Assembly (NCBI GenBank): GCA_028867275.1
Contig: JAGWGU010000005.1
Span: 1 to 53,798, forward strand
Length of the DNA: 53,798 nt
Origin: Nitrososphaerota archaeon
GTDB lineage: Archaea > Thermoproteota > Nitrososphaeria > Nitrososphaerales > Nitrosopumilaceae
Direction of reading: 5' to 3'
Below the pieces are notes generated by a model. The model was given only the letters and a program-made list of their open reading frames with translations, did no database searches and was not told the DNA's origin. Of the stretch, positions 37,218 to 40,695 are shown one piece after another. The position numbers and the translations under genes were made by a program. How positions within the stretch are numbered: the stretch's first letter is position 1; each line of letters starts with the position of its first letter.

Positions 37218-37294
37218 GAATCTCCAACTTTCAAGTAAAATTTAGGAACGAATTTCTGCAATTTTTAAATGAAAAACAAAAGGCGCCAGGTAAG
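37218..37294. repeat. Right-end repeat next to intact tRNA-Ser
   Basis: Partner of the repeat at 34656-34731. It shares the exact GCGCCAGGTAAG (37283-37294, which includes tRNA 3' bases) and an approximately aligned AT-rich flank. Together they bound the candidate element. Confidence 0.6.
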
Positions 37295-37380
37295 GGATTC
37301 GAACCCCTGAGTGCTGAAAGCACAACCGCTACCTTGTTTTTGATCTCGAGGCGGTCGCCGTACCACTTGGCTAACCTGGC
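37284..37380 (-). tRNA. tRNA-Ser (anticodon CGA), with intron
   Basis: On the minus strand: acceptor GCCAGGT pairs with ACCTGGC, discriminator G (typical of archaeal Ser), D arm GCC-loop-GGC, and anticodon stem ACCGC with GCGGT. A long variable arm marks a class II tRNA (TGTGCTTTCAGCACTC), and the T arm is AGGGG-TTCGAAT-CCCTT. Removing 14 nt (37331-37344) gives the 7-nt loop CTCGAGA with anticodon CGA, reading UCG. The CCA tail is not fully encoded. TATA-like TTATTTATG lies 27-35 nt upstream on the minus strand (37407-37415). Confidence 0.93.
37331..37344 (-). other. Short tRNA intron
   Basis: 14-nt intron ATCAAAAACAAGGT at the canonical position between nucleotides 37 and 38 of tRNA-Ser(CGA). 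It would be removed by the archaeal splicing endonuclease from a bulge-helix-bulge-like structure. The exact cut sites are inferred from the 7-nt loop. Confidence 0.75.
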
Positions 37381-37935: not shown

Positions 37936-38961
37936 ATGGGCCTAGATCTAAAACAGCTTTGTGTAAGAGAGAGAACAAACCTTGAATCATTTACATCAAA
38001 GATTGTAGCAATTGATGCATACAATGCAATTTACCAGTTTTTGTCAATCATACGTGGACCTGACGGGCTTCCACTGACTGACTATAACGGAAAAATAACA
38101 AGCCACATCAGCGGCCTGTTTTATAGAAACATCAACTTCTTGTCCCTTGGAATAAAACCAGTTTATGTGTTTGACGGAAAACCTCCATCACTAAAGTCTG
38201 CAGAGATTCAAAGAAGAAAGCAGGTAAAAAAAGATGCCACGATAAAATATGAAAAAGCAATAAGCGAAGGAAAATATGCTGAAGCAAAAAAGTTTGCACA
38301 GCAGACATCAGTTCTGCGAGACGACATGGTAGAAGAGTCAAAAAAATTCCTTGACCTATTTGGGATACCATCCATCCAGGCACCATCAGAGGGAGAGGCA
38401 ACTGCAGCATATCTTACCACAACAGGAAAAGCATATGCATCTGCAAGCCAAGACTTTGATTCGTTATTGTTTGGCGCAAAAAGGCTTGTCAGAAACTTTA
38501 CAAACAGTGGAAAAAGAAAGCTGCCAAACAGAAACACCACAATAGAGATAGAGCCAGAAGTCATCCAGCTTGACAAGACATTATCTTCACTTGGGGTTAC
38601 AAGGGAGCAGCTAGTCGACATTGGAATACTCATAGGCACGGATTTCAATCCAGATGGATTTGAGAGAATAGGTCCCAAGACTGCATTAAAAATGATAAAG
38701 GACAATGGTAGCTTGGAAAATGTCTCCCAGATCCAGGAAAAACTAGGAGAGATTGATTACAAGCAGATACGTGACATTTTCTTGAATCCAAAGGTGGCAG
38801 AGGTATCAGAGATAAAGTTTGGAGATGTGGATTACCCTGGAATTGTAAGTTATCTTACAAAGGAGAGGAGCTTTTCACTGGACAGAGTTGACACTTCGTT
38901 AAACAGGTTAAAGAAAGCGCTTGAGAAAAAGAGTCAGAACCTTGAGCAGTGGTTCAAGTAA
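37936..38961 (+). CDS. fen: Flap endonuclease 1
   Basis: 341 residues, full length. It cleaves 5' flaps and processes Okazaki fragments in the replication fork. N region [10 protein letters not shown] with catalytic Asp27 ([11 protein letters not shown]), acidic residues in [21 protein letters not shown] and [10 protein letters not shown], and the H3TH region. The C-terminal QNLEQWF (335-341) is a PIP box for binding the PCNA clamp. The start is ATG 37936. Confidence 0.96.
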
Positions 38962-39066
38962 GTCAAGACAAAATTCTGATTATCACGTTTGATAAACAGG
39001 ATCGTGCTTTTATGATCATTATGAAATTATAATCCATCGTGAATCTCCAGCAATCTCTGGCATAAA

Positions 39067-39113
39067 CATGACCACACTCCCCCGTCTGGATAGAATCTAG
39101 GCGGGTGGTCATG
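39067..39113. ncRNA. Candidate structured RNA (strong hairpin)
   Basis: In the 211-nt gap after fen. Outer stem CATGACCAC (39067-39075) pairs perfectly with GTGGTCATG (39105-39113). The inner stem, CCGTCTGGAT (39082-39091) with ATCTAGGCGG (39095-39104), has 10 pairs, two of them G-U, around a 3-nt loop. A 6-nt bulge lies on one side. Upstream are a smaller hairpin (CCAG-CAATCT-CTGG, 39047-39060) and a TATA-like ATTATAATCC (about 39025). The structure is too long and regular to be a simple terminator. No known class recognised. Confidence 0.45.
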
Positions 39114-39172
39114 ATTAATACGCACGACAGATCAGAAAATAATCAAAACATGTTTACAGATGTAATTAGAAA

Positions 39173-39310
39173 CTAGATCGTTTTTCGCTTAGCCATTTTC
39201 GGATCAAAGGGTTTGCTTTTTTCTATGCTCTTGTGAAGACATGCGTCAGAGCAATGGGTAGCTTGCGGTTCTTCAAGCACCTTACCGCAGGTGGCACATT
39301 TTCTAGTCAA
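39173..39310 (-). CDS. Tiny zinc-finger protein (45 residues, DUF2116-like)
   Basis: TTG 39310 to TAG 39173-39175. It reads MTRKCATCGKVLEEPQATHC and SDACLHKSIEKSKPFDPKMA plus a basic tail. Cysteine pattern C-x2-C-x11-C-x3-C matches short Zn-ribbon proteins of the DUF2116 type. A purine-rich GGTGGGTGGA precedes the TTG, so this start has a plausible ribosome site. Function unknown. Confidence 0.7.
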   Translation of the reverse strand: MTRKCATCGKVLEEPQATHCSDACLHKSIEKSKPFDPKMAKRKTI

Positions 39311-39337
39311 TTCCACCCACCTTGTATACAGTACAAA

Positions 39338-39493
39338 TCACTCGTGTTCATCATCATTTGATTCATCTGCCCATTTCCTGTTTCTTGTCCTGTAATGTTC
39401 ATCCCATTCCATCTCTTCAGAGTTGTCTTTAAGACCCCATTCAGAATCATCATGTCCATAATCTCTTGCTGATCTCTTATTCTCGTGATTCAA
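39338..39493 (-). CDS. Possible acidic micro-protein (51 residues)
   Basis: If started at TTG 39493 the product begins MNHENKRSARDYGHDDSEWG and ends in a strongly acidic stretch. A TATA-like TTTATTTAAAAG lies about 30 nt upstream on the minus strand. Low complexity (Asp, Glu, Asn, Trp, Arg) makes it hard to tell from chance. Confidence 0.4.
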   Translation of the reverse strand: MNHENKRSARDYGHDDSEWGLKDNSEEMEWDEHYRTRNRKWADESNDDEHE

Positions 39494-39648
39494 AATTATG
39501 GAATTTGGATAATCAAATGCGCTTTTAAATAAAAGGTTGATTATCAAATGTGAGAACTAGAATAACCAGACTCTATCCCAGTCCAACCATTCCAGTTAGG
39601 AGATGATTATATACAATCAAACCCTAATGCCATCATCCAGGTAATATC

Positions 39649-40695
39649 ATGAAAGTACAAGGATATGCAGCACAGAGTGCCAAGGCAACATTGGCACCGT
39701 TTTCATTTGAAAGGCGAGAGCCAGGGGACAATGACATTGTAGTAGACATACAATACTGTGGAATATGTCACACTGACATACACCAGGTCGGTGACGAGTG
39801 GGGCGGATCCACATTCCCAATGGTTCCAGGACATGAAATAACAGGGATTGTATCAAAGACAGGACCCAAGGTAACACGGTACAAGACAGGTGACAGGGTA
39901 GGAGTAGGTTGTTTTGTAAACTCGTGCCGCAAGTGTGAGCCCTGCAAGAAAAACTTGGAACAGTACTGCACAGGCGGAATGGTTACAACTTATAACGGAA
40001 CTGAAAAAGATGGCACTCCAACCCAGGGAGGATACTCTAACAAGATTGTCGTAGACGAAAATTACGTATTAAAAATTCCAGATACCTTGCCTCTTGACAA
40101 GACTGCACCTCTTTTATGCGCTGGAATAACACTCTACTCACCACTAAGACACTGGAAGGCAGGCCCAGGAAAAAAAGTTGCAATCATTGGCCTTGGAGGA
40201 ATAGGCCACATGGGAGTAAAGATTGCACATGCACTTGGCGCAGAGGTCACGGTTCTTAGTCACTCGCTCAAAAAACAAGAGGATGGAAAAAAGCTTGGAG
40301 CTGACTACTTTTATGCCACATCAGATCCCGCAACATTTGAAAAACTCAAAGGGTATTTTGACTTGATAATCAATACAGTATCTGCCGAGCTTGACTGGAA
40401 CCAGTACCTTGAGCTTTTAGCACTAGATGGTTCCATGGTAGTTGTCGGCATCCCAGAAAAGCAGACACCTGTTGGCTCGTTCCCACTTGTTGCTGGCAGG
40501 CGCAGCCTTGCAGGCTCACTCATCGGAGGAATCAAGGAAACACAAGAGATGCTTGACTTTTGCGGCAAGAACAACATTGCAAGCGAGATAGAACTGATTC
40601 CAATTCAAAAGGTAAACGAGGCCTACAAGCGTGTACTCAACAGCGATGTCAGGTACAGGTTTGTAATTGACATAAAATCGCTTGAACAAAAATGA
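39649..40695 (+). CDS. Zinc-dependent alcohol dehydrogenase (YahK/CAD-like)
   Basis: 348 residues, medium-chain dehydrogenase. Catalytic zinc ligands Cys37 and His62-Glu63 ([11 protein letters not shown]), structural zinc Cys92, Cys95, Cys98 and Cys106 ([16 protein letters not shown]), and the Rossmann motif GLGGIGHMG. Members reduce aldehydes with NADPH. In Thaumarchaea a related enzyme could serve as a semialdehyde reductase in the hydroxypropionate/hydroxybutyrate cycle; this is inference. TATA-like GATTATATAC lies about 45 nt upstream of ATG 39649. Confidence 0.93.

Follow-up and report, generated by a model that had tools for sequence, protein, structure and literature searches.

What is the GC-rich hairpin that lies between fen and adh in this archaeal genome, and does it belong to a gene of its own? 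The window, i.e., the whole stretch of 53,798 nt that was analyzed, encodes a fen protein that is 89-96% identical to Candidatus Nitrosotalea records, so its source is a Nitrosotalea-like ammonia-oxidising archaeon. An initial annotation had singled out the sequence behind fen as a possible new structured RNA with its own promoter, consisting of a hairpin preceded by a smaller hairpin and a TATA box, in a gap with no convincing gene. The candidate unit shares the fen-adh interval with two small genes on the minus strand, and the features of the region are as follows:

37936-38961, plus strand: fen
38977-38998: dyad TGATTATCA-CGTT-TGATAAACA, with one mismatch to TGATTATCAN4TGATAATCA and kept in both homologues
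about 39007-39014, plus strand: TATA-box-like T-rich stretch CTTTTATG, about 8 nt after the dyad
39036-39041, plus strand: predicted start of transcription, on the GTG or immediately ahead of it, placed by the regulon spacing described below
39039-39065, plus strand: candidate leaderless micro-ORF, GTG AAT CTC CAG CAA TCT CTG GCA TAA, which would encode MNLQQSLA
39047-39059, plus strand: small hairpin CCAG/CTGG, specific to the window and broken in both homologues
39067-39113, plus strand: 47-nt hairpin from folding, with outer arms CATGACCAC/GTGGTCATG
39081-39105, plus strand: inner stem-loop CCCGTCTGG...CTAGGCGGG, with the C-tract before it and nine pairs in all three copies
39173-39316, minus strand: ORF for a small zinc-ribbon-like protein of 47 aa, the convergent neighbour of the unit
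about 39338-39497, minus strand: ORF for a small acidic protein, upstream of the zinc-ribbon gene
39538-39559: degenerate dyad of the acidic and zinc-ribbon gene pair, with three mismatches
39649-40695, plus strand: adh

Both the sequence and its folding bear out the 47-nt hairpin. On the plus strand, 39030-39135 folds with -36.4 kcal/mol (z = -4.38), a value that none of 200 shuffles equalled, and the minus strand folds less well (z = -2.59). The inner stem CCCGTCTGGA/TCTAGGCGGG contains two G-U pairs, which had been read as pointing to an RNA and not to a DNA palindrome. The outer stem had been described as a perfect 9-bp helix; eight of the pairs hold, but one G of the ninth is also claimed by the inner stem. 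The smaller CCAG/CTGG hairpin and the T-rich, TATA-like stretch are where they were said to be, and we too find no convincing protein ORF of normal size at the hairpin, the sole candidate being the 8-codon micro-ORF. When the stability of 60-nt windows was scanned on both strands over the whole 53.8 kb with correction for GC content, the plus-strand segment at 39061 ranked first of 17,914 overlapping windows (z = -5.46), though not wildly separated from the rest, since the runner-up loci reach z = -4.87 and -4.81. None of the 4227 families of Rfam 15 gave a match over the element at E ≤ 5. The only Rfam match in the window at the gathering threshold lies elsewhere, a 97-nt tRNA match of 45.7 bits at 37284-37380 on the minus strand, which is probably an intron-containing tRNA and was missed by an ARAGORN run.

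A BLASTN search over 37 genomes of the genus returned one real match, 76% identical over 113 nt, on contig C251 of assembly G022. A covariance model built from the window and this copy (R1) detected a third copy on contig C249 of the same assembly (E = 1.1e-9). A model built from all three (R2) scores them at 88.6-94.7 bits, with the next best match in 250 genomes of the family at 27.4 bits, and finds no further copy in 400 genomes sampled from the order. The homologous unit is present in 2 of the 37 genus genomes, with one copy in the window's own genome and two diverged copies in G022, and identity among the three is 72-78%. Note that two of the three copies are in G022, an assembly with 86% completeness and 7% contamination, and could therefore derive from two strains. 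The C251 unit is tandem to the zinc-ribbon gene pair that in the window is convergent with the unit, and the C249 unit lies beside unrelated small genes; because the surroundings differ in each copy, the unit appears to be self-contained. Its description as an element that follows fen does not carry over to relatives, as the related Nitrosotalea and Thaumarchaeota loci that were inspected have no such element after fen. In the nearest relative (L002), homology ends with fen and resumes about 60 bp on at adh, where the window has about 640 bp; to judge from this comparison, the fen-adh block is an insertion in the window or a loss in L002.

A number of other matches were set aside. With a 211-bp query, BLASTN hits many genomes through the dyad alone. 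Weak covariance-model matches in other genera (15-27 bits) looked coding-like or due to chance where inspected, and a recurring one, in a conserved coding stretch with ..REFATKAGINTSV.., was taken as chance. In viral contigs, three matches to CTGGCATA..CTCCCCC occur in one near-identical context with the second stem arm missing, and 14 matches to the stem pattern come without the rest of the unit and score 24 bits at most. A MITE or other repeat element was rejected, given the single copy in the window's genome and the two diverged copies in G022. Separately, a coding gene with ..REFATKAGINTSVPAAM.. near position 1501 of L117, L135, L136 and L138 shares ATCGTGAAT..CTGGCATAAACA with the unit, which was taken as chance, though it is seen in several genomes.

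The three copies allow us to follow conservation along the unit. In the three-way alignment, the identical columns number 16/22 in the dyad, 19/40 in the spacer (including GATCGT and the T-rich stretch, at whose position both homologues have TTTTTA), 18/27 in the micro-ORF, 3/12 in the linker, 9/13 in the C-tract and left arm, 1/8 in the loop and 9/9 in the right arm CTAGGCGGG, which is invariant throughout. The C-tract and hairpin have persisted in every copy despite the drift of linker and loop, and they are probably the working part. All nine pairs of the inner stem survive; two of them vary on one side only (U-G/C-G and G-U/A-U), and changes of this kind, from GU to GC or AU, indicate preservation with weak covariation. 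The search for covarying pairs that the initial annotation had proposed found no two-sided compensatory change in the inner stem among the three copies. The outer stem is partly retained, with 75% of scorable cells kept and two of the cells two-sided; as 85 of 500 whole-structure shuffles do as well, this retention carries no weight. Of the proposed structured RNA with its own promoter, the part that stands is a conserved promoter followed by a short conserved unit with a hairpin, whereas the covariation is weak.

The promoter of the unit, as judged by sequence, consists of the dyad and the TATA-like stretch, both of which are conserved in the three copies. The dyad, searched as TGATTATCA-N4-TGATAATCA, is found far beyond this locus: at 21 sites with up to three mismatches in its own genome, compared with one for the reversed control, and with up to two mismatches in 28 of the 37 genus genomes, where the reversed control gives none (examples are L145-L159 at 1501-1522 and the window sites 38977-38998 and 39538-39559). 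With at most one mismatch, it occurs in 50 of the 250 family genomes and in 10 of 22 genera (control 0), and other genera of the family also carry dyad sites. In the window's own genome it lies upstream of genes for Hsp20, the thermosome (Cpn60_TCP1), PAC2, a pair of universal stress proteins (Usp), a CBS protein, an M50 protease that also has CBS domains, and a PNPOx-like protein, among others, and an MFS transporter gene is likewise next to it. For ORFs of at least 60 aa, the start codons lie mostly 39-41 nt past the end of the dyad, with a mode of 40. This spacing leaves room for a TATA box and none for a leader, so that the mRNAs of the regulon are probably leaderless. Taken together, the dyad apparently marks a genus-wide, chaperone/stress-type regulon of leaderless genes in Nitrosotalea, and from the gene list we infer that it is induced by stress. 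The candidate unit fits the regulon spacing, with its GTG at +41 from the dyad at 38977-38998, and is probably switched by the operator that also serves the heat-shock chaperone genes. The initial annotation had overlooked the dyad, the regulon and the micro-ORF.

The neighbouring gene pair in the window also lies behind a dyad, the degenerate one, and in the homologous part of the acidic protein gene the first in-frame TTG is near 39495, about 43 nt from it. The zinc-ribbon gene has a DNA homologue, 75% identical, beside the C251 copy; Pfam treble-clef matches to its protein are weak and below cut-off, and further members of the family follow the dyad in other species (L094, L160, L165). Twice in G022 and once in G033, the divergent side of the dyad bears a second conserved element (L143:4867-4985, minus strand; L142:1786-1901, minus strand; L083:1549-1660, plus strand), which is 86-91% identical, absent from the window's genome, and may encode a small protein (..TTKVLVGKYDHRHPPTPSE..) or be a structured RNA. 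The segment L143:5709-9000, downstream of the C251 unit, contains a protein that matches PADLOC PDC-M23A (E = 2.7e-78) and, after it, a large helicase-like protein; the two form a candidate defence pair.

How, then, should the unit be read? We give about even chances to the explanation that 38977-39113 forms a small gene in its own right within the chaperone/stress-type regulon, producing a leaderless RNA with a micro-ORF and a 3' hairpin. A putative regulator would bind the dyad beside the TATA-like stretch, and upon derepression or activation RNA polymerase would start at or next to the GTG at 39039. The product would measure about 75-110 nt and have no leader, and in it the 8-codon micro-ORF would be followed by the C-tract and, at the end, by the stable GC-rich hairpin. 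Such a molecule may act as a small regulatory RNA: the hairpin would form its stable 3' core, and the C-tract or one arm of the hairpin would make contact with a target, be it an RNA or a protein. The micro-ORF may link the stability of the RNA to translation or yield a second product. A regulatory RNA is the favored main role, since the right arm, where constraint is strongest, lies outside the ORF. Counting against this reading, the copies number only three, and two of these come from a single assembly with some contamination; the conserved stem shows no two-sided compensatory change, the closest relatives, L002 among them, lack the unit, and no U-run follows the stem on either strand. In a bolder form, which is a tentative possibility, the transcript would be a dual-function leaderless stress RNA and the first RNA member of the regulon; it would begin with its own GTG, code for a peptide of 7-8 residues and act through the C-rich hairpin.

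The main rival to a regulatory RNA is a micropeptide gene, where the product would be MNLQQSLA (in the homologues MNFQQLA, of 7 codons, and MNLKKLLA), made from a leaderless mRNA that the hairpin only protects or ends. Its GTG sits precisely at the start-codon position of the regulon, 41, 41 and 40 nt past the end of the dyad in the three copies, and the reading frame is preserved, with an in-frame 3-nt indel of one codon, conservative replacements and a stop that is retained through TAA/TAG/TAG, in three copies that are too short for a codon test. However, a start triplet would fall at this spot with a chance of about 14% (three positions, 3/64 triplets), and because the three copies are homologous the placement of the GTG counts as one event. 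Peptides of 7-8 residues are also seldom stable, and the best conserved part of the unit is the right arm of the hairpin, beyond the stop codon. We regard a gene for the peptide alone as rather unlikely. Its first codons and its promoter could instead be what is left of a lost regulon gene of recent descent, with a fortuitous stem. The patchy distribution, in 2 of 37 genus genomes, would suit such a decaying remnant, as would G033, where the same promoter and flank precede another gene, for a radical SAM-like protein. Decay should not have spared the stem arms, C-tract and micro-ORF while linker and loop came near saturation, and the survival of all nine stem pairs at 72-78% identity makes a remnant improbable.

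The position of the hairpin between the 3' ends of fen (plus strand) and the zinc-ribbon gene (minus strand) raises another explanation, in which it is a terminator or a 3'-end processing or stability element of these convergent genes and the dyad serves something else. GC-rich stems at transcript ends are found in many genomes. An intrinsic terminator was rejected, as a scan of 38900-39700 found no U-run after the GC stem on either strand, and in G022 one unit is tandem to zinc-ribbon genes and the other is beside unrelated genes, while promoter and hairpin travel together; we consider an end element of this kind quite improbable. Far less probable still is a guide RNA of the H/ACA type, with a stem, a pocket, a lower stem and an ACA at about 39126. 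The window alone has the closing CGTG/CACG structure followed by ACA; both G022 copies lack the lower stem and the ACA, which largely excludes such a guide, and Rfam gives no match.

The autonomous gene with a leaderless RNA resembles several known arrangements. Small regulatory RNAs induced by stress occur in archaea and bacteria, among them dual-function RNAs with a micro-ORF, and the present unit shares with them a short autonomous layout, a stress-type promoter, a stable hairpin and possibly a micro-ORF. It differs from them in lineage, in its predicted leaderless start and in having no sequence relation in Rfam 15. A short ORF followed by a GC-rich hairpin also recalls leader peptide and attenuator regions, but there is no close gene in the same direction for it to control: adh starts 535 bp on in the window, the next gene at C249 is on the opposite strand, and at C251 there is none within about 400 bp. 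The regulon as a whole is reminiscent of that of Phr in Pyrococcus furiosus, a repressor that binds a palindrome and whose targets include Hsp20, VAT1 and PbaA (PMC10746257). In both cases a palindromic operator stands at the promoters of Hsp20, of other chaperone genes and of a PAC2-like proteasome-assembly gene, a likeness in the target list alone, and the Nitrosotalea dyad regulon differs in including a candidate RNA gene.

In the open papers searched in full text, we found no description of the operator, of the RNA or of small RNAs in Nitrosotalea, and the operator is apparently undescribed. The unit is a plausible new small stress RNA of roughly 80 nt, whose transcription and function we infer from the patterns above. 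Little is known of how ammonia-oxidising archaea regulate their genes, and the analysis of this locus yields an operator for an apparent chaperone/stress regulon, a spacing rule implying that its mRNAs are leaderless, and a candidate small RNA that would be under the control of the same operator.
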